A stretch of 64,000 nt of DNA from positions 1 through 64,000 of the forward strand of contig JAADDE010000001.1 of the NCBI GenBank assembly GCA_013154085.1, written 5' to 3'. Source of the DNA: Thermoproteota archaeon (GTDB taxonomy: Archaea; Thermoproteota; Thermoprotei_A; Sulfolobales; Ignicoccaceae). The position numbers and the translations under genes were made by a program. Position 1 is the stretch's first letter. Each line of letters begins with the position of its first letter. The notes under the pieces were generated by a model. That model worked only from the letters and a program-made list of their open reading frames with translations. It searched no databases and was not told the DNA's origin. Positions 25,697 to 49,150 of this stretch are shown here, piece by piece.

Positions 25697-26992
25697 ATGA
25701 GGCGTGTAATTGCTCTGGCATTGCTGTCCTCCATAGTGTTGCTGGCCGTGTCCCCGGCGGAGCTAGAGCTCCTCACGAAGCCGTACCAGCTCGGTCCCAA
25801 CTGTGAGAGCATAAAGAAGGTGGTCGAGTGGAGCGGCGGTCCAGACAACATCAACTTGCCTCAAGAGATACCGATAGGTGCTCCGGCTCCCCTCAGCGGC
25901 GCCCTCGGCTCCTTTGCCGTATCCAACTATAATGCAATAAAGATGGCTGCAGACGACATCAACGGCTGTATGCAACAGCTAGGGCTTCCTTGGAGGTTCA
26001 AGTTCATAATGGAGGACACCAGGACTGACCCCCAGGTAGCAGTGGAAGTCGTGAGAAAGCTGGCCCTCCAGGGCGTCCAAATAATAGCTGGAAGGATCAC
26101 CAGCAGGCCTATGGGATCCTTGATGTATCCCGTCAACTCTGAGCTTCACGTAGTAGTTATGTCCGCTACCAGCACTGCCCCCAACCTGAGGATTGCCAAC
26201 TACAACCAGTACATATCGAAGACCGGCAAGTCCTACATCTTCTGGGCCATCACCAACGACTACTTCCAGGGCGACGCTCTGGCCTCGCTGGCCCACAAGC
26301 TCGGCTACAGGAAGGTCACTGTGATGTACCGCCAAGACGACTACGGCGTCGGCCTCGCCAACGCCTTCAAGTACTACTTCTCCCAGTACGGCGGCGAAAC
26401 GGTGCTGGTGCCTTACGATCCCAACGCCAGGACCTTCGACGCTGAGCTCAGGATAGTCGCAAACAGCAACCCTGATGCAATACTCTTCATATCGTTCGAC
26501 GAGCTGAAGGTGATACTGAGGCAAGCCCTCCAGCTGGGCCTCCAGAGGTACCCGTGGCTCTTCAGCGAGACTTGTAGGGGTGTGCTGCTCAGCGATCCCC
26601 AGCTGGCGAAGATAGTAGCACTCAAGAACGGCATGGGCACCGGACCGGGCGGCAGCGACCAGTTCGCGAAGCTGTATCAAGAGCGGTTCGGCATGCCGCC
26701 GATGCTCTATGCCGACTACATCTACGACACTCTGTGGCTGTCTGCCCTAAGCGTGCTGAAGGCTAAGACGTACAACGCAGATGCCATAAGGCAAGCGCTG
26801 ATCGAGGTGGGCGCCTACTTCCGCGGCTACACTGGCCCCAAGACCTTCAACCCGCTCACCCAAGAAGTGATGAAGTCAGTGTACCACTACTGGACGATCA
26901 AGATCGTGGACGGAAAGCCCGAAGTTGTGAAGGTAGGACTCTGGGACCCCGAGCAAGGGATAAACATGTTCCAAGAGATAACTCCTCGCTGA
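25697..26992 (+). CDS. Branched-chain-amino-acid-type ABC solute-binding protein (copy 1)
   Basis: A 431-residue LivK/Peripla_BP_6-type binding protein. Signal peptide RRVIALALLSSIVLLAV is followed by the mature protein with the family opening IPIGAPAPLSGALGSF and later QDDYGVGLANAFK. Ligand type (amino acid, amide, urea or other) is not decidable. It is 45-50% similar by eye to the next gene. There are no LivHM permeases or LivFG ATPases nearby, so the transporter core is elsewhere or the protein binds ligand without import. The ending QEITPR resembles that of copy 2 (KENITPR). Confidence 0.88.
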   Translation: MRRVIALALLSSIVLLAVSPAELELLTKPYQLGPNCESIKKVVEWSGGPDNINLPQEIPIGAPAPLSGALGSFAVSNYNAIKMAADDINGCMQQLGLPWRFKFIMEDTRTDPQVAVEVVRKLALQGVQIIAGRITSRPMGSLMYPVNSELHVVVMSATSTAPNLRIANYNQYISKTGKSYIFWAITNDYFQGDALASLAHKLGYRKVTVMYRQDDYGVGLANAFKYYFSQYGGETVLVPYDPNARTFDAELRIVANSNPDAILFISFDELKVILRQALQLGLQRYPWLFSETCRGVLLSDPQLAKIVALKNGMGTGPGGSDQFAKLYQERFGMPPMLYADYIYDTLWLSALSVLKAKTYNADAIRQALIEVGAYFRGYTGPKTFNPLTQEVMKSVYHYWTIKIVDGKPEVVKVGLWDPEQGINMFQEITPR

Positions 26993-27051
26993 AACACCTC
27001 AAAGAGTAAGGTTTTTATGAAGTGGGTTTCCCGTCCCTCTGGAGAAGGGGC

Positions 27052-28344
27052 ATGAAGAGCTACGCCGCTCTCTTGCTACTTACCCTCCTCGCCGGAGGCG
27101 TCGCCTTCGCTATGGCTCCTCAAGAGAAGTACGGAGGCCCCAGCTGTGACTACATAAAGATGGCAATAGAGAGGGCCGGCGGTCTCGAGAAGGTTAAGGA
27201 AGGCCTCGGCACTACTACGATAAAGATAGGCGCGCTCATACCCATGAGCGGCGCGCTGGCCAGCTTCGCCGAGGAGCGCTACGCGGCCCAGCTGGCGGTC
27301 CGCGACCTCAACTACTGCTTCGAACAGCTACAACTGCCCTTCAAGATAGAGCTGTACATAGAGGACACCCAGACCATGCCGCAAGTGGCCCTGGAGAAGG
27401 CTAGGAAGCTGGTCAACGTTAACGGCGTCCACATGATAGTGGGCCCGGCCACCAGCGCTGCCGTCGGTACCCTCCAAGACGTGATAAACAACGAGCTAAA
27501 GGTAATACTGATGAGCCACTCCAGCACCTCTCCGCTGGTCAGGTTTAACAACAGGGAATTCATCAAGAACAACGGCTACAGCTACGTGTTCTTCAGCGTC
27601 AGCAGCGACCTCTTCCAAGCCAGGGCGCTGGCCAGCGTCGTCGAGTCCCTAGGCTACAAGAACGTGGTCTTCTTCTATAGGAACGACGACTACGGCAAGG
27701 GATTCGCTATGGCCTTCAAGCAAGCCTTCGAGGAGATGGGCGGTAAGGCCCACTTAATACCCTACGACCCCAACGCTAGGAGCTACCTGGCGGAGCTGAG
27801 GGCCATCCCGACCTACAACCCGGACGCCATTGTGTGGCTGGCGTTCGACGAGATAAAGGTAATACTCAAGCAGGCACTGACCCTCGGCCTCCAGAAGTAC
27901 CCGTGGTTCTTCACTGAGGCGGTCAAGGGCCCGGCTCTGGTAGCCGATCCGGTCGTGGCCAAGGTACTGGCAACCAAGAACGTCCTGGGCACTGCCGTTT
28001 ACACTACCAGCAACTTCATACAGTACTACGAGAGCGTTTACGGAAGGGCCCCCGTGGAGTTCAGCGACACCCTCTACGACGCCGTCTGGCTGGTGACCCT
28101 CGGCGCTCTGAGGGCTGGTTGCTTCAACCCCAACGTCATGAGCCGCGCAATCATTGAGATGAGCTACGTGTACAAGGGCTTCAGCGGCGACAAGAGCATG
28201 AACGCAATATACCAAGAGCCTCTGACCACCAGCTACAGCATCTGGACTGTGAGGATAGTCGACGGCAAGCCGGTCTTCGTGGACGTGGGCTTCTGGAGCC
28301 CCGACAAGGGCCTCGTTATGAAGGAGAACATAACTCCTAGGTAA
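27052..28344 (+). CDS. Branched-chain-amino-acid-type ABC solute-binding protein (copy 2)
   Basis: A paralogue of the preceding gene. Signal peptide MKSYAALLLLTLLAGGVAFA, then GALIPMSGALASFAE and RNDDYGKGFAMAFK. The start ATG 27052 follows GAGAAGGGG; the GTG at 27022 would add non-conserved residues before the signal peptide. A TATA-like TTTTTATG sits between the genes, so it may have its own promoter. It converges with the E1-like gene (2-bp gap). Confidence 0.88.
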   Translation: MKSYAALLLLTLLAGGVAFAMAPQEKYGGPSCDYIKMAIERAGGLEKVKEGLGTTTIKIGALIPMSGALASFAEERYAAQLAVRDLNYCFEQLQLPFKIELYIEDTQTMPQVALEKARKLVNVNGVHMIVGPATSAAVGTLQDVINNELKVILMSHSSTSPLVRFNNREFIKNNGYSYVFFSVSSDLFQARALASVVESLGYKNVVFFYRNDDYGKGFAMAFKQAFEEMGGKAHLIPYDPNARSYLAELRAIPTYNPDAIVWLAFDEIKVILKQALTLGLQKYPWFFTEAVKGPALVADPVVAKVLATKNVLGTAVYTTSNFIQYYESVYGRAPVEFSDTLYDAVWLVTLGALRAGCFNPNVMSRAIIEMSYVYKGFSGDKSMNAIYQEPLTTSYSIWTVRIVDGKPVFVDVGFWSPDKGLVMKENITPR

Positions 28345-28346
28345 CG

Positions 28347-29129
28347 CTAATAGATGTTTTTTATCAAGTACTCGGGCACGTCTTCTATCCTAAGCTTCTT
28401 CACCTCCCCGGAGCAGAGCGGACACCCTTCATTTCTCACGTCACTTGCCAAGAACGCTCTGTACGGCTCCTCGAGGTTCAGCGAGATCTCGCTGGGCCAG
28501 CTCCTCCCGGAAAGGGCGTGGAGCACGGCTTGTGATGCCAGCGCGGCCACCGCCTCGGCCAAGTTGGGGTTCGTGTAGTACCTGACCTTCTCCTCCCATA
28601 CCTTGCCGCATATCGGGCAGTATCCCTCTTTCAGATACTTCACGTAGCCTCTCGTGACGCCCAGACCCGCATCAATGTACTTTTTATCGAACTTAACTGA
28701 AAGGAGCAAGGCCGTCGCTCTCGGAGGGAGGGTGTCGAAGGCCGTAACTACAGCGTCGCTCTTCTCCACGAGCCTCGCAAACTCCTTCAAGCTACTAAGG
28801 GAGACCAGACCAGAAGGGGTGAACACTTCCATGTACACCCCTTCTAAGTGCGTCCACGGGTGGTACTTGTTCAGCCTCTCTGCCAGAGCCTCTACCTTCG
28901 GCCTTCCTACCTCCTCGCTGTGGTAGCACTGGTATCCGACGTTCTCTGGCCCTACGTAGTCGAAGTCCACCAGCACGATCTTTTTAAAATTAAAGCGGGC
29001 GAGGTCCCGGGCTATGCGCGAGCCCAGAGTGCCTATTCCGCCTATGAGGACCGTCTTGTCGGATACGTCTATTCCTACGTCCTTCAAGTAGTTTGACGTC
29101 CTCTCGGGGAACCCTTTAGGGGGCTCCAT
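28347..29129 (-). CDS. E1-like activating enzyme (ThiF/MoeB/HesA family)
   Basis: 260 residues that should adenylate the C-terminus of a ubiquitin-like protein. Nucleotide motif GGIGTLGSRIA at 30-40, VLVDFDYVGPENV at 53-64, lysine at 78 and the Asp-x-x-x-x-R element FDTLPPRA at 131-138. Zinc ribbon Cys pairs are CPIC (171/174) and CPLC (236/239). The only other cysteine is C68, so the usual crossover-loop thioester cysteine is missing, and the N-x-x-R-Q arginine is Tyr. ATG 29129 has GGGGTG upstream and overlaps the JAMM gene by 46 bp. It is last in the Ubl cluster. Confidence 0.9.
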   Translation of the reverse strand: MEPPKGFPERTSNYLKDVGIDVSDKTVLIGGIGTLGSRIARDLARFNFKKIVLVDFDYVGPENVGYQCYHSEEVGRPKVEALAERLNKYHPWTHLEGVYMEVFTPSGLVSLSSLKEFARLVEKSDAVVTAFDTLPPRATALLLSVKFDKKYIDAGLGVTRGYVKYLKEGYCPICGKVWEEKVRYYTNPNLAEAVAALASQAVLHALSGRSWPSEISLNLEEPYRAFLASDVRNEGCPLCSGEVKKLRIEDVPEYLIKNIY

Positions 29130-29863
29130 GTCACACCCCTTACTACAACGCGGTCCTTAGATAATTTGGATACTTTGACTTCGTAAGCCACCGCCTTTGA
29201 AGGAGTTATCTTTAAATACGGAAATTCTGTAATGTCGAAGTTAATTCTATAGGAAGCTATGAAAATCAAATCTTCTAAGACAATATCAGCCACGTTGCCG
29301 TAGCGGTAGGGCACGCACGTCTTGTCCGGCTCGCTGCAGAACCCTGTCAGAGAGTACTCGTCCGCATCCCTGTCATACTCCGTTTTGGCAAAACCCTTTT
29401 TCTTGGCTATATTGTCGATATCCTTTATTTTCAATTTTTTCGCGTTATACATTATGGATATATCCGGAACCGGCTCATATATGCCTATGTCGAGGCAGAA
29501 AGAGCGTCCCACCACCACCGGCGAGATTATGCCGAAGACGCGCGGTTTTCCCGGTATGGTGGCATACAGCTGGGCCCTCAGCGCAATTTTCATCGTATCC
29601 ACATCGATGCTTGATGGCTCCGGAGGTATGCCGCAGTGGTAGTGCGCCACAATGAGATCGTCCGGCTGGAGGTCGTACGTCCTCACGTAGGTTGGGCCCT
29701 TATCGAGGGCCCTCATGTATCTGGCCCTTTCTACTTTTATTACTATGTCGTCCATAGTTCCGCTGAGCGCAACTACGTCTTCTGAGGCGTCCTTGCTCAG
29801 CATGTAGCATTTGTTCCTCACACCTATATCGAGTAACAGAGTGAATATCTCTGGGTTTATCAT
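29084..29863 (-). CDS. JAMM/MPN+ metalloprotease-like protein (Ubl deconjugase)
   Basis: 259 residues from ATG 29863. Residues 71-87 read IVAHYHCGIPPEPSSID and give the JAMM zinc signature HxH-x7-SxxD (H74, H76, S84, D87). The upstream EDVVALSG supplies the expected Glu (E28). This is the signature of Rpn11/CSN5-like isopeptidases and of bacterial Ubl deconjugases (BilC, Cap3). The C-terminal 160 residues have no known homologue that I recognise and contain a few Cys. It lies between a Ubl/E2-like gene and an E1-like gene, with 4 nt after the former's stop, so removal of the Ubl or maturation of its C-terminus is the natural role. Confidence 0.82.
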   Translation of the reverse strand: MINPEIFTLLLDIGVRNKCYMLSKDASEDVVALSGTMDDIVIKVERARYMRALDKGPTYVRTYDLQPDDLIVAHYHCGIPPEPSSIDVDTMKIALRAQLYATIPGKPRVFGIISPVVVGRSFCLDIGIYEPVPDISIMYNAKKLKIKDIDNIAKKKGFAKTEYDRDADEYSLTGFCSEPDKTCVPYRYGNVADIVLEDLIFIASYRINFDITEFPYLKITPSKAVAYEVKVSKLSKDRVVVRGVTWSPLKGSPRGRQTT

Positions 29864-29867
29864 GGCC

Positions 29868-30596
29868 CTATGCACTGCCACCGTCGCAGAGTCCAACGTC
29901 CGTGCATAGCGCAACGTCGAGCACCTCGAGTGGGTTCTTTTCCGTTGACCTTATGTAGTCCCAAGACTCAATGTGCATTATGCAGGCGTTTAGCTCAACC
30001 ATACGCCCGGCCTCCTCTAGGGCCGGGCTCAACTCGGGGAATTCTTTTGCTTTAAGTAAGAAAAAATCGCCTTTCAAGTTGTGAAAACAGCACTTGTGGT
30101 ACACTTTGGGCGATATAAATATCAGCGGCTCTGTCTTGGGGTAGCCCAAGCTCGGGAACACGAAGACCTTGTAGGTTCTTTTGGGACTGCAGTAGCCCCT
30201 CTTCGCACACGCCTTCTCCGTCCAGATGCCCAGCCCCGGGTCGTTCGCCAGCGGCCGGTACTTCTTCTGGAGCTCTGGGGAAGAGAAGTAGTGCTCTCGG
30301 AACGCTTCTATCGCGCTCTCCAGCGAGCCGTAGGGCTCCTCTATCGTCGCGTACCACGTATTGCCGTGGACTGCCACCAGGCTTCCGACGCTCTCGGACG
30401 AGTGCGTTATCTCGTACTCGACGCCGTCCGGCTTCTTTACGAATATTCTGATCCTTCTGGGGCTTATGCCCAGCTTCTCGGCCAGCTTTCCGCGGATGTC
30501 GTCCGGGGTCTCTCCGTAGTTCGCGAATATGTGGTATTCCGAAAGCTCCGGCTTCAGCATTACGACCAAGTGAATCTTTTCGGGCTCGCTCGACAA
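29868..30596 (-). CDS. Ubiquitin-like domain fused to possible UBC (E2)-like domain
   Basis: 242 residues from TTG 30596. Residues 7-84 fit a beta-grasp (ubiquitin-like) domain: strand KIHLVVML, strand YHIFANYGET, helix PDDIRGKLAEKLG, strand RRIRIFVKK and a closing strand. Residues about 92-215 resemble an E2 core: N-terminal helix, beta meander, then GYPKTEPLIFI (Tyr152-Pro153 and Pro157, like YPFxPP), H167 where HPN would lie, and G176. The expected catalytic Cys slot carries Phe, but C169/C170 and C205 are close. The chain ends in GLCDGGSA, so GG is two residues from the end. Both domain assignments are my inference from pattern. Known E2 motifs support it; the catalytic Cys is unresolved. 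Confidence 0.55.
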   Translation of the reverse strand: MSSEPEKIHLVVMLKPELSEYHIFANYGETPDDIRGKLAEKLGISPRRIRIFVKKPDGVEYEITHSSESVGSLVAVHGNTWYATIEEPYGSLESAIEAFREHYFSSPELQKKYRPLANDPGLGIWTEKACAKRGYCSPKRTYKVFVFPSLGYPKTEPLIFISPKVYHKCCFHNLKGDFFLLKAKEFPELSPALEEAGRMVELNACIMHIESWDYIRSTEKNPLEVLDVALCTDVGLCDGGSA

Positions 30597-30599
30597 GGC

Positions 30600-31043
30600 C
30601 TACCTTCTCCTCCTCATCTCCACTTCTGCTTCTATGGGTTCTATAACGGACTTCAAGCTCACCGCCAGATCCACGACGGGCTTTACTTCGTCCTCAGGGA
30701 GGCCGTATTTCTCGAGGAACTCCTCGCCGTCGGGCGTCAAACGGAGCTTGTTCTTGGCCGGGTTCCGCTCTAGGAGGCCCACGTAGAGCAAGTCCATTAT
30801 ATCTTGGTGGAGATCCTTGCTACCGACGACCTTGCCTATCTTCACGAACTGGTAGCCTAGGTCTACTCCCTTCTCCTTCATTTCGTACAGGAGGCGCGTG
30901 AGTCCCTTTTCAGAAATCTCGCCGAACTGCTTCACTATGTGCAGTATCATCTTCATGCTTCTACTTTTCTTGACGTCGTCAACCGTGATGACGTGTCTTG
31001 TTACGATCTTCAGCTCTTTCGTTTTCCCCCCGGACGCCGACAT
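30600..31043 (-). CDS. Winged-helix-like protein
   Basis: 147 residues from ATG 31043, which has GGGGGGAG upstream; a second in-frame ATG is at 31061. Helical segments followed by LYVGLLERNPAKNKLRLTPDGEEFL, which looks like a winged-helix recognition helix and wing. A basic C-terminal RRRR precedes the stop and supplies the purine tract before the Ubl-E2 gene's TTG. It overlaps the upstream membrane protein gene by 65 bp. A regulator of the cluster or a substrate adaptor is possible. Confidence 0.6.
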   Translation of the reverse strand: MSASGGKTKELKIVTRHVITVDDVKKSRSMKMILHIVKQFGEISEKGLTRLLYEMKEKGVDLGYQFVKIGKVVGSKDLHQDIMDLLYVGLLERNPAKNKLRLTPDGEEFLEKYGLPEDEVKPVVDLAVSLKSVIEPIEAEVEMRRRR

Positions 31044-31785
31044 GTTCTCCCCCCTCGTCATCCTCCTCGGAGGATATTTTTGTAGTGGTCAACCTCTCCC
31101 AGAGCTCTGCCAGTGCCTCCTCGAGGGTCCTTCCGCTCAGCAGAAGCTGATAGAGCTCGAAGCGAAACAGCTCCTCGCCTTCCCTCGTTCCGTAGAACTC
31201 CAAGAACAGCCTCCTAACCTCTTCATAATCCACTCTTCTCGGCAACCTCTTCACCTCCAAGCTTACTCTGATAGGAGCTTCTGCCCCCGCAATAACAGAC
31301 GCCACGAGGTATGCTCCGCCCATCAAAGGATTTGCGAAGAATGTGCCTATGCCCCCTACGAAGAGCACCATCAGCGCCAGCGTGGGAGAAAGAGAGTACA
31401 GCAACAAGCTGGCCCAAGGAATGTAATTCATCAATGTTATTGGAGTTACAAGCAGACTGAATGCGGAGAGCGAAACGAGGGTAGCCACGAGCTTTCCGTT
31501 CCAGCGCACCTCTTGTTCAATGAGCTTTTCGACGGCTTCGCCTATCTTTTCTAAGTACGCCTTTTTCATGGCACTATCCTCCGTTTCTTCCAGCCTATCC
31601 AAGAGCTTCTCGACCTCGCTCCAGACCTCTCCCGAACGGAGCGTGCACGCTACGGGCTTGAGAGTGCTTGATATTTTTACTAGCAACTCCATGAGAATTG
31701 TATTATCTGGCGCGACCTCCCTCTTTGCCGCTTCCTTGAGAAGTTTCCGGAACTTGTCGTAAAAGCTCCTCTTAGGCTGGCACAT
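30979..31785 (-). CDS. Membrane protein with coiled coil and cytosolic domain
   Basis: About 268 residues. A helical N-terminal 110 residues, three hydrophobic segments at roughly 108-185, then a 75-residue soluble helical part and an acidic/polar tail (EEDDEGGEHV). ATG 31785 follows GGTGCTGTG. The family is not recognised. It is the first gene of the tightly overlapping run that includes the Ubl-E2, JAMM and E1 genes. A membrane anchor or target of the modification system is a fair guess only. Confidence 0.65.
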   Translation of the reverse strand: MCQPKRSFYDKFRKLLKEAAKREVAPDNTILMELLVKISSTLKPVACTLRSGEVWSEVEKLLDRLEETEDSAMKKAYLEKIGEAVEKLIEQEVRWNGKLVATLVSLSAFSLLVTPITLMNYIPWASLLLYSLSPTLALMVLFVGGIGTFFANPLMGGAYLVASVIAGAEAPIRVSLEVKRLPRRVDYEEVRRLFLEFYGTREGEELFRFELYQLLLSGRTLEEALAELWERLTTTKISSEEDDEGGEHVGVRGENERAEDRNKTRHHG

Positions 31786-31815: not shown

Positions 31816-33081
31816 CTAAGAGTCTAAGAATTTAGAGAGGAGCTCCCGATCGGTCATCAGGCGGGCAGCCTTTACTTTCCTCATGAGGCCCTTTTCATAT
31901 CCTCTGTAGAACGGACAGATGTAGCAGCCGAGCCTGTAGAAGCCCGACGGGTAGAGGGGGTTGGGGTACACTCCCTTGTGGAGCAAGTAGAGCTGAACCA
32001 TCATAGCGCTCCACAACTTTAATGGTGCCTTGAGGGTGCCGACGCCCTCCCAAGAACGCTCCTCCCAGCGGGAGGAGCGCGCGCTGGATTCCGCGTCCCT
32101 GTCCCCAACCACCACGAAGTCGGGCCTTGCCTCCCTTATTGCCTCCTCAAGCGCCTTGAGTTTGAGGCCCGTGCACCACCTCTCCTCTCTGCGCGGGAGC
32201 CCCCTAGACGCTATCTCTTCCTTAACCGGGGCCCTCTTGTACACCAGCTCAACTCCTAGGCGGCTTGCTAGGTCTTCCACGTACAGCTTGTTCAAGTGCA
32301 TGTCAACGCCGGTGTCTACGTAAACTGCAACTACTTCGTCGCAAGCCTCCTTTGCGATCAGCAGCGCAGCAGTGCTGTCCTTGCCGCCGCTCCAAGGGAC
32401 GACCGCCCTCTCGCAGGGCTTCAAGAACTTCACTGCGATTCTTTCCCATTCTTTTAAGAACGGCTCGCTCTTAACGAGGGAATCCTTAAGCCGGAATCCT
32501 ACCACATCGCCCAGAACGGTAGGCGTGGGCTCCGAAAGGTCTCCCAGCTCCATCATGGCCACTACCCTTCCTCCCGAATATATCTCGTGAAATCCCTTTG
32601 CCCTCTTGAACACCAGAAAGGCGTCGCTGGAGGCCTTCCCCAGCCCAAGCGTCTCCCACCAAAGTCCCCACGCCAAGAAGGGCTCTTCGGAGGGCCCCAC
32701 CTTGGCCGGAAAGACCTTCTTCAAGTACGGAACGTTCCCCTCCCAGGCCACCCAGCCGCGCGGCTGGGCCTTTGCCATCTCCAGCTCCCACCTCAAGTGG
32801 GAGAGGCGCGCGTTCCGGACCCGCGCCCTCGGAACTACGTGGACCACGACGTTGGGCGGGGTCGTCGAGCTCAGCTCGCCGGCGATCTCAGAATCCTCCC
32901 TGCCCAGCATGACAATGTTCATAGCGTTTGGATCGTAGACTTCTTTTATTTTGTCAAGTATATCAGCCTTGCGGGCTCCCTTCAGCGTGAGAACCTCCGC
33001 CCTCCACCAGGGGAGGGCTTGGGAGAGCATCGCCTTTACGGCGTCGGCGTCTTTCTTGCTACGCACGATTATTTTCAGCAT
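31816..33081 (-). CDS. PP-loop ATPase, PAPS-reductase-like
   Basis: 421 residues. The N-terminal 200 residues carry no recognised enzyme motif and may include a PUA-like segment. The C-terminal half has the PP-loop VPWSGGKDSTAALL, the Asp-rich VYVDTGVDMHL, ERWCTGLKLKALE and GCYICPFYRGYE, where the cysteines could bind Fe-S or zinc. The fold is shared by PAPS reductases, tRNA thiolases and DndC. ATG 33081 fits a TATA-like TTAATTAAA at about 33 bp upstream. It is 30 bp upstream of the membrane-protein gene of the Ubl cluster, on the same strand. Confidence 0.82.
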   Translation of the reverse strand: MLKIIVRSKKDADAVKAMLSQALPWWRAEVLTLKGARKADILDKIKEVYDPNAMNIVMLGREDSEIAGELSSTTPPNVVVHVVPRARVRNARLSHLRWELEMAKAQPRGWVAWEGNVPYLKKVFPAKVGPSEEPFLAWGLWWETLGLGKASSDAFLVFKRAKGFHEIYSGGRVVAMMELGDLSEPTPTVLGDVVGFRLKDSLVKSEPFLKEWERIAVKFLKPCERAVVPWSGGKDSTAALLIAKEACDEVVAVYVDTGVDMHLNKLYVEDLASRLGVELVYKRAPVKEEIASRGLPRREERWCTGLKLKALEEAIREARPDFVVVGDRDAESSARSSRWEERSWEGVGTLKAPLKLWSAMMVQLYLLHKGVYPNPLYPSGFYRLGCYICPFYRGYEKGLMRKVKAARLMTDRELLSKFLDS

Positions 33082-33182
33082 AAAGGTCTTCCGGCAGTGA
33101 CTGAGCACAACGGGTTTAATTAGCTAGGGGCCGGGGCAGAACGATATTTAGCTCTACCTTAGAGCAGAGGGCGGGCACTGCC

Positions 33183-48377: not shown

Positions 48378-48642
48378 GATGGGCACGTGTGAGGTGTGCG
48401 GCTCCAAGCTCTCGGTCACCAGATGCTACGTCTGCGGAAGGTTGGTTTGCAGGGACTGTAGCGAGGAGGTCCAGCCCGGCATCAGAGTTTGTGCGATCTG
48501 CATTAAGTCCGGCTGGAAGGAAAAACTGATGGAGGCAAGGCTCGCGGCGGCCTCCGAGTACTCGAGGTGGTACCGTGAGGCGCTCCGTCTTGGTGGTCGG
48601 TTGCGGGGGGCTGGGAAGCTGGACGAGCTTGATAATGGCTAA
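48280..48642 (+). CDS. Double treble-clef zinc-binding protein (RING/B-box-like)
   Basis: 120 residues from TTG 48280 (GGGGG upstream). Sixteen paired ligands: C3/C6, C14/C17, C22/H25, C29/C32, then C37/C40, C49/C52, C57/C60, C71/C74. Each set of four pairs suggests a cross-brace binuclear site, as in RING, B-box or FYVE-like fingers. The C-terminal 45 residues are helical. Binuclear treble clefs of this kind occur with prokaryotic Ubl systems; whether this one is an E3 is an inference. Overlaps permease and E1-like genes on both sides. Confidence 0.75.
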   Translation: MRCYFCGERASSRCSVCGRPVCRSHGDPCPACKMGTCEVCGSKLSVTRCYVCGRLVCRDCSEEVQPGIRVCAICIKSGWKEKLMEARLAAASEYSRWYREALRLGGRLRGAGKLDELDNG

Positions 48643-49150
48643 GTCCGGCTGGAAGGACTTCATATTGGTCGATCCCGACTACGTCGAACCGAAGAACATT
48701 TCCAACCAGATATACTTTCCGGAGGACGTCGGGAAGCCGAAAGTAGAAGCCTTGAAGAGGAAGCTCCAAGATCTGGGAGCGAAGGTAGAGACATACCAGT
48801 CCCGGATCGAGGAAGTCTTGGACCGCCTCCCAGAGGTTCCATTAGCCTTGGCTCTGACCGACAACATACCGAGCAGGCTGGTCGTGGAGGAGAAGTACAA
48901 GACTCTCCACGCCATGGTTAGGCCCGGGTTTGGGATAGTAACCATGACCACAGAGAACTTCAAGCTCTCCCAAGTAATGAGAGAAGGAAGGCACGAGGGG
49001 CCCCAAGAGCCCCCTATGGTAGTCATGGTTGCCAGCGTCGCGGCTAGGGAGGCTCTAAGCTACTTGAAGGAAGGAAAGTCCAAAGTCGAAGGCAAGCTTC
49101 TTATGATATCTCCTTACCGCTTCGAGGTGCTGGAGGTCGGGACGGCGTGA
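48575..49150 (+). CDS. Minimal E1-like (ThiF/HesA) protein
   Basis: 191 residues: nucleotide motif GCGGLGSWTS at 9-18, VLVDPDYVEPKNIS, GKPKVEALK and the D-x-x-x-x-R equivalent TDNIPSR. The zinc ribbon and catalytic Cys are absent (the only Cys is C10) and the N-x-x-R-Q arginine is Asn. Shorter than usual E1-like proteins by the C-terminal domain. GTG 48575 overlaps the zinc-finger gene by 68 bp, so translation is likely coupled. Confidence 0.82.
   Translation: MRRSVLVVGCGGLGSWTSLIMAKSGWKDFILVDPDYVEPKNISNQIYFPEDVGKPKVEALKRKLQDLGAKVETYQSRIEEVLDRLPEVPLALALTDNIPSRLVVEEKYKTLHAMVRPGFGIVTMTTENFKLSQVMREGRHEGPQEPPMVVMVASVAAREALSYLKEGKSKVEGKLLMISPYRFEVLEVGTA

Follow-up and report, generated by a model that had tools for sequence, protein, structure and literature searches.

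Gene content of the locus

The window analysed here is the whole stretch of 64,000 nucleotides, which forms part of the 1.18-Mb draft genome of a small, heat-loving archaeon. An earlier note on this DNA had placed a single chain that seemed to carry both a modifier and an E2 at positions 29868-30596; these coordinates are correct, and the gene itself is read from the minus strand, the plus strand containing stops within the stretch. The features on which the analysis turns are listed below.

29868-30596, minus: ubiquitin-like (Ubl)-E2-like fusion protein, 242 aa (TTG start at 30596, stop at 29868; from translation)
30327-30596, minus: ubiquitin-like beta-grasp domain, residues 1-90 (Foldseek PDB matches to TBCE Ubl, UFM1, ubiquitin and SUMO)
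30324-30365, minus: C-terminal strand of the Ubl and junction, GNTWYATIEEPYG/S, residues 78-91, with a candidate JAMM cut between Gly90 and Ser91 (alignment)
29871-30323, minus: E2 (UBC)-like domain, residues 92-242 (AlphaFold2, Foldseek, hhalign)
30096-30143, minus: E2 signature YPKTEPLIFISPKVYH, residues 152-167 (motif scoring of window ORFs)
30087-30092, minus: Cys169-Cys170, candidate E2 catalytic cysteine, with HKCC for HPN...C (HKCCF invariant in five genomes; hhalign)
29871-29882, minus: C-terminal GGSA, not conserved
29868-29914, minus: overlap of the Ubl-E2 and JAMM genes, 47 nt, of which 27 nt (29883-29909) are identical in five genomes
29084-29914, minus: predicted JAMM metalloprotease, 276 aa (Glu45, His91, His93, Ser101, Asp104)
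28347-29129, minus: E1-like ThiF-family adenylyltransferase, 260 aa, with two CPxC zinc motifs (Pfam ThiF, 2.6e-24)
30600-31061, minus: winged-helix-like protein directly upstream (profile matches in 113/117 genomes of the order)

The Ubl-E2 ORF is a real gene, as judged by orthologs at 57-73% identity in 4 other genomes, which means that all five genomes of the genus carry it, and by codon analysis, in which dN (0.04-0.37) fell far under dS (saturated or at least 0.87), the mark of purifying selection at the protein level. A profile search with Ubl-E2 over 398 genomes of the phylum returned matches in its own genus only, as did a profile search with the JAMM protein over 229 genomes of the class, and a scan of the genome collection with the E1 was likewise confined to this genus; the three-gene unit was not seen elsewhere. 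Ubl-E2, JAMM and E1 follow one another in the same order in 5/5 genomes. The full order on the minus strand is membrane protein, winged-helix protein, Ubl-E2, JAMM and E1; in one genome (G001) other genes precede the winged-helix gene.

The winged-helix-like protein (30600-31061) is single-copy and has no Pfam or NCBIfam match. It was considered as a system-specific component and set aside, being a core protein of the order (113/117 genomes); it is probably not specific to the system. A viral or mobile origin was likewise rejected, viral contigs giving no match and the operon being present in 5/5 members of the genus. Membership of a defence system was also dismissed, PADLOC having matched nothing but the ThiF protein, and that to generic E1 entries.

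Several other genes of the window were recorded. A PAPS-reductase-like protein (31816-33108, minus; NCBIfam PRK08576, 466 bits) lies upstream of the operon in three genomes. Tandem paralogs resembling substrate-binding proteins of the branched-chain amino-acid type (25697-26992 and 27022-28344, plus) are convergent with the E1 gene, and the second of them adjoins E1 in all genomes read. A second ThiF-family protein of 191 aa (48575-49150, plus), without an Arg finger (NISNQ), adjoins a cysteine-rich zinc-binding-like protein and an ABC transporter, and similar ThiF copies occur in congeners.

By its residues, the 276-aa neighbour of Ubl-E2 is a predicted JAMM protease with a complete catalytic set. 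Its HYHCGIPPEPSSID fits HxHPx5PSxxD and is preceded by E45-D-V-V-A-L-S-G; Glu45, His91, His93, Ser101 and Asp104 are invariant in the five genomes and conform to E...HxHx(7-10)SxxD. An hhalign comparison with Prok-JAB proteins of the same order (P 0.0014) brought HxH...D and the Glu into register. The protein had no match in Pfam, and Prok-JAB matches were absent from the five genomes of the genus.

The best PDB matches of the E1 were ATG7, followed by NEDD8-E1, SUMO-E1 and Cap2. It has the ThiF fold with its ATP-binding motif, and GGxGTLGS, DxD, K78 and D132 are conserved. The Arg finger is replaced by Tyr66 (NVGYQC for NLNRQ), and the crossover loop has no Cys, in contrast to the E1s of three other genomes discussed below (G278, G367 and G252), which have one.

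Domains, cysteines and C-terminus of the fusion protein

Full-length Ubl-E2, modelled by AlphaFold2 with the five orthologs, reached a pLDDT of 83. The reading of its first 80 residues as a beta-grasp domain, made in the earlier note, was confirmed by Foldseek against the PDB (E-values 3e-5 to 5e-4), in which the top matches were nearly all Ubl/RA/RBD-type beta-grasp proteins. The sequence signal of the domain is weak (polyubiquitin, E-value 0.046; Pfam ubiquitin, E-value 0.16, two members). A second copy of the Ubl domain was not found in the five genomes.

Residues 85-242 modelled alone gave a pTM of 0.82 and the order alpha, beta-meander, alpha. Among the 50 best PDB matches of the E2-like domain in Foldseek nearly all were E2 or UEV proteins, but with E-values of 0.2-1 and TM-scores of at most 0.44; the viral structure library BFVD returned noise and was uninformative. 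The E2 core proposed for the remainder of the chain has support from the predicted fold, which resembles E2/UEV and for which no other fold emerged, but it is not significant by sequence alone; searches against Pfam, NCBIfam and PADLOC gave no E2 match.

Motif scoring of the 56,399 16-mers from all window ORFs ranked YPKTEPLIFISPKVYH first for the E2 signature (35.2; runner-up 26.0). The pattern YP-x3-P-x9-H, whose spacing in Ubl-E2 is identical to that in UBE2N and UBE2D2, was confined within ~91,000 residues to the Ubl-E2 gene and its orthologs. The YP..P and His elements were thus rightly recognised from the letters: Y152, P153, P157 and H167 are invariant in the 5 genomes. Unguided hhalign against archaeal E2s (P 0.015) arrived at the same register as the signature, running through YPKTEPLIFISPKVYHK, a 9-residue gap and CCFHNLK, with NPLEV then opposite the E2 motif NPNPDDPL. 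None of 60 column-shuffled controls reached this score, and with unrelated alignments taken from this operon P was at least 0.13; against five human E2s only, hhalign gave no signal (P 0.36). Homology of the domain to UBC is likely in view of the Foldseek matches, the signature score and the register obtained with archaeal E2s, and on the predicted model it would be a very divergent E2 relative at best.

The HPN motif is missing and is replaced by HKC in all 5 genomes. The loop that leads from HPN to the Cys is absent, leaving H167-K168-C169, an H-x-C spacing equal to that of the HPC motif of ATG3 (ATG3 sequence checked against PDB chains). HKCCF is among the longest invariant runs of Ubl-E2. 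It takes a 9-residue deletion for hhalign to line up C169/C170 with the catalytic Cys of archaeal E2s, and since these two residues occupy the catalytic slot in the E2 register, the suggestion that the slot holds Phe was not borne out. The CC pair at 169/170 and C205 are present as described and invariant, as are all seven cysteines of the protein in the 5 genomes.

The C-terminal GG to which the earlier note drew attention is there in this genome (CDGGSA) but missing from the other four (CDGTGA, CDTGSA, CDSRSA and CDGNAP), the last four residues drifting freely. With the five genomes ending differently, the GG is by all appearances a product of chance, and the five-genome alignment rules it out as the mature end of a modifier. 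Trimming of this end by the JAMM enzyme to expose GG falls with it, GG being kept in none of the relatives. The ten invariant residues before the tail, ALCTDVGLCD, sit where the JAMM gene overlaps in another frame. JAMM start codons (TTG, GTG, TTG, TTG and ATG) occupy the same position in 5/5 genomes, and for this reason the overlap is best taken as dual coding. Its identical 27 nt occur once per genome (four genomes scanned), amid saturated synonymous divergence. A DNA or RNA element in this stretch was considered and rejected, as the two overlapping frames account for the identity well enough: by hand count, ~1 site could change silently in both.

The Ubl-E2 junction and related systems

At the boundary between the Ubl and the E2-like domain, the five-genome family carries the block GNxWYAxIEEPYG/S. 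Of the 14 residues of this tail 12 are invariant, against 31/77 in the remainder of the domain (Fisher p = 0.0018, which is indicative, the comparison having been picked after the data were seen). Codons of the junction vary synonymously and freely, and one genome has a 7-aa insertion right after it. Such invariance would be expected of a modifier tail read by E1 and JAMM; an ordinary linker should drift.

The junction was aligned with PRPVGG/S of archaeal Ubl-E2 fusions, LRLRGG of ubiquitin and PRDRVG/SC of UFM1 (sequence verified). With either predicted beta5 (residues 80-85) or the turn Gly as the anchor of the alignment, Gly90 takes the position of ubiquitin Gly76 and UFM1 Gly83; MAFFT without an anchor put the register off by one residue. 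The junction holds a single invariant internal Gly, Gly90, rather than GG, and cleavage is needed to make it C-terminal. A third option, absent from the earlier note, agrees better with the evidence than its two alternatives: a Ubl that serves as the modifier would have its mature C-terminus at this internal Gly90, the place at which related archaeal fusions carry GG.

These fusions were identified by a PF00179 search over 398 genomes of the phylum, which found several long E2 genes that were then read for fusions; PF00179 had no match in the members of the genus covered (G000, G001 and G002). One genome (G278; L128 3552-4373) encodes Ubl-...PRPVGG/SM...HPNI...C, that is Ubl-GG-E2 in one ORF; a JAMM gene follows it after 5 nt, and a ThiF E1 is found ~0.6 kb upstream (locus L128 3552-4869). 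A second (G283; L130) has a fusion joined by ...PRPVGG/SM, a third (G143; L129) has the same kind of Ubl joined to the E2 by ...PRPVGG/AM, and a fourth (G367; L127 3069-3944) has ...TYLIGG/IDVAR-E2 adjoining E1. In two more (G082 and G252; L131 and L132) Ubl and E2 are separate adjacent genes, the Ubl ending in ...GG or ...GGKPN. Like the protein described here, the Thermoproteota fusions combine an N-terminal Ubl and an E2 in one ORF, with JAMM immediately following in G278 and a ThiF E1 close by in G278 and G367; unlike it, they keep the junction GG, HPN and the canonical Cys loop, and their sequence link to it is faint (hhalign P 0.045).

Two further arrangements were noted. One genome of the same order (G019; L134 2230-4448) has a more distantly related set, comprising a Ubl-E1 fusion of 315 aa, a divergent E2 of 195 aa (AHPNVDKTGSLC) and a JAMM of 226 aa. 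Another genome (G020; L093 4585-6561) clusters JAMM, a MoaD-MoaE fusion and MoeB, which suggests JAMM processing of MoaD-MoaE.

Bacterial operons of Ubl, E2-like, JAB and E1 genes were described in 2006, including beta-grasp domains fused to an inactive E2-like domain (PMC1779556), and BilABCD is a later-described bacterial operon of this kind (PMC11354881). The bacterial 6d/6e operons and BilABCD resemble the present locus in bringing Ubl, E2-like, JAB and E1-like components together, and 6e has beta-grasp repeats fused to the E2-like domain. In 6e, however, the E2 lacks the Cys, JAB is usually fused to E1 and there are multiple Ubl domains, whereas the archaeal protein has a single Ubl and a conserved CC pair, with JAMM and E1 as separate proteins. 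In Caldiarchaeum a ubiquitin cascade works, and its JAMM, CsRpn11, removes a C-terminal extension from pro-ubiquitin (PMC5654768, PMC6043591). The Caldiarchaeum subterraneum operon (CsUb, E1, E2, srfp and Rpn11) is similar in uniting an archaeal Ubl, E2, E1 and JAMM, with the JAMM maturing the modifier precursor, and differs in its separate Ub and E2 genes, canonical E2 and RING E3.

Other likenesses are partial. The ATG7 match of the E1 and the H-x-Cys spacing recall ATG7-ATG3/ATG10, but the E2 domain has no detectable ATG3 homology, the E1 has no ATG7 N-terminal domain, and the genes form a prokaryotic operon with JAMM. A single-Gly tail followed by Ser is shared with pro-UFM1 (RVG/SC) of the UBA5-UFC1-UFM1 pathway. 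CBASS Cap2/Cap3 likewise pairs a ThiF E1 and a noncanonical E2 with a JAB protease; there E1 and E2 are fused, the substrate is the CD-NTase and the context is bacterial defence.

E2-like proteins were reported to be absent from archaea, and Jab from many crenarchaea, in a 2010 survey whose genomes included I. hospitalis (PMC2948915). Operons of Ubl, E2, JAMM and E1 are known in bacteria and in Caldiarchaeum/Asgard archaea; in the literature outside subscription papers we found neither an Ignicoccus operon nor any Ubl-E2 fusion from archaea described. Those passages of the I. hospitalis proteome paper that our search brought up make no mention of ubiquitin or ThiF proteins.

Candidate readings of the operon

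The best reading, to which we give a probability of roughly 0.45, is that Ubl and E2 are made as a polyprotein, which JAMM possibly cuts after Gly90, and that the three genes form a compact archaeal Ubl conjugation module. JAMM would cut GNxWYAxIEEPYG/S after Gly90 and free a Ubl with a single C-terminal Gly, which the E1 would adenylate; the Ubl would next be loaded on Cys169/Cys170 in the E2-like half, which would hand it on to a target, and JAMM may also take it off again. UFM1 and ATG8/ATG12 have a single C-terminal Gly.

Arguing for this reading are the Ubl fold, the E2-like fold and signature, the complete Glu/His/His/Asp set of the JAMM, the nearness of the ThiF E1 to ATG7 in the PDB and the constant order of the three genes in five genomes. 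The junction also speaks for it, being conserved beyond the rest of the Ubl with synonymous codon changes and an insertion directly after it, and having a tail length that sets Gly90 at ubiquitin Gly76. Further support comes from the Ubl-GG-E2 fusions elsewhere in the phylum, the lack of a second Ubl copy in the five genomes and the precedent of the JAMM CsRpn11 (PMC5654768, PMC6043591). Against it stand the one junction Gly in place of GG, the missing HPN, the shift of Gly90 by one in unanchored MAFFT, the E2-like domain's non-significant sequence scores (hhalign P 0.015 archaeal, 0.36 human) and Foldseek E-values, the lack of an E3 and the presence elsewhere in the genome of a MoaD-like Ubl that does end in GG. 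Thioester transfer is uncertain, as the E1 is without a crossover-loop Cys and has Tyr as its Arg finger.

That MoaD-like protein, a standalone Ubl of 85 aa ending in FPPAAGG, and a MoaD-MoaE fusion, both encoded apart from the operon, bear on the rival that fares best, which we consider possible though unlikely. Here the chain stays whole and acts as an E2-like enzyme, its N-terminal Ubl docking the E1 in place of the missing UFD, while a separate Ubl of the MoaD/SAMP type, with an AAGG end, serves as modifier. The E1, at 260 aa, does lack a UFD, the longer E1s of G367 and G252 having extra domains, and the single Gly at the junction also counts in favour. This account, however, leaves the invariant tail through Gly90-Ser91 without a reason, turns the phylum's Ubl-GG-E2 fusions into a coincidence and relies on a MoaD-like gene that is unlinked to the operon. 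Placement of the modifier elsewhere, one of the two alternatives in the earlier note, is possible.

The loss of HPN and the deleted active-site loop could instead mean that the E2-like domain has no catalytic activity at all, like that of the type 6e polyUbl-E2 proteins, and that the protein is a Ubl-bearing scaffold or substrate whose seven Cys bind zinc or form disulfides. We judge this improbable. Type 6e provides the precedent, its E2-like domain being Cys-less and joined to beta-grasp repeats, alongside JAB and E1 (PMC1779556), and seven invariant Cys, including C130-x5-C136 and C231-x5-C237, are unexpected in a plain E2. Yet the 6e fusions have lost the Cys that is kept here, few invariant runs are as long as HKCCF, and the register places Cys in the catalytic slot.

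A sulfur-carrier pathway, in which a MoeB-like E1 adenylates the Ubl on the way to a thiocarboxylate, JAMM does the processing and the C-terminal domain is something else, would suit the MoeB-like CxxC pairs of the E1 and its crossover loop without Cys. A relative in the order that clusters JAMM, MoaD/MoaE and MoeB and the PAPS-reductase-like gene upstream in three genomes fit as well. We rate it as distinctly improbable: the UBC-like fold and signature go unexplained, the PAPS-reductase-like and membrane genes are not beside the operon in G001, and the genome has a separate, unlinked MoaD-MoaE fusion. The other alternative of the earlier note, that JAMM trims SA to expose GG on the E2 chain and E1 then activates this terminus, is barely credible despite the GGSA of this genome and the precedent of Cap2, which activates a non-Ubl C-terminus (PMC12355090), given that 4/5 genomes have no GG and that the conservation of ALCTDVGLCD is confounded by the overlapping JAMM frame.

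Within the favoured polyprotein reading, a doubtful but specific variant is a self-splitting cascade, in which JAMM would cut the single-Gly junction and the Ubl adenylate would go straight from an ATG7-like E1 without a thioester Cys to Cys169/170 of an HxC-type E2. If true, this would be an archaeal system that works like the noncanonical UFM1/ATG pathways, and its host would be an archaeon that has an endomembrane system.

With separate genes, fusions with GG and fusions with a single Gly, the phylum offers a gene-fusion series in which the origin of the fusion is traceable. Modifier and E2 in one chain would couple their stoichiometry and recruitment. If the genus is Ignicoccus, as is almost certain, it includes a cultured species with published proteomics, which makes the proposal directly testable. 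An archaeal Ubl and a probable E2 in one chain, beside E1 and JAMM, suggest a compact and unusual relative of the ubiquitin system.
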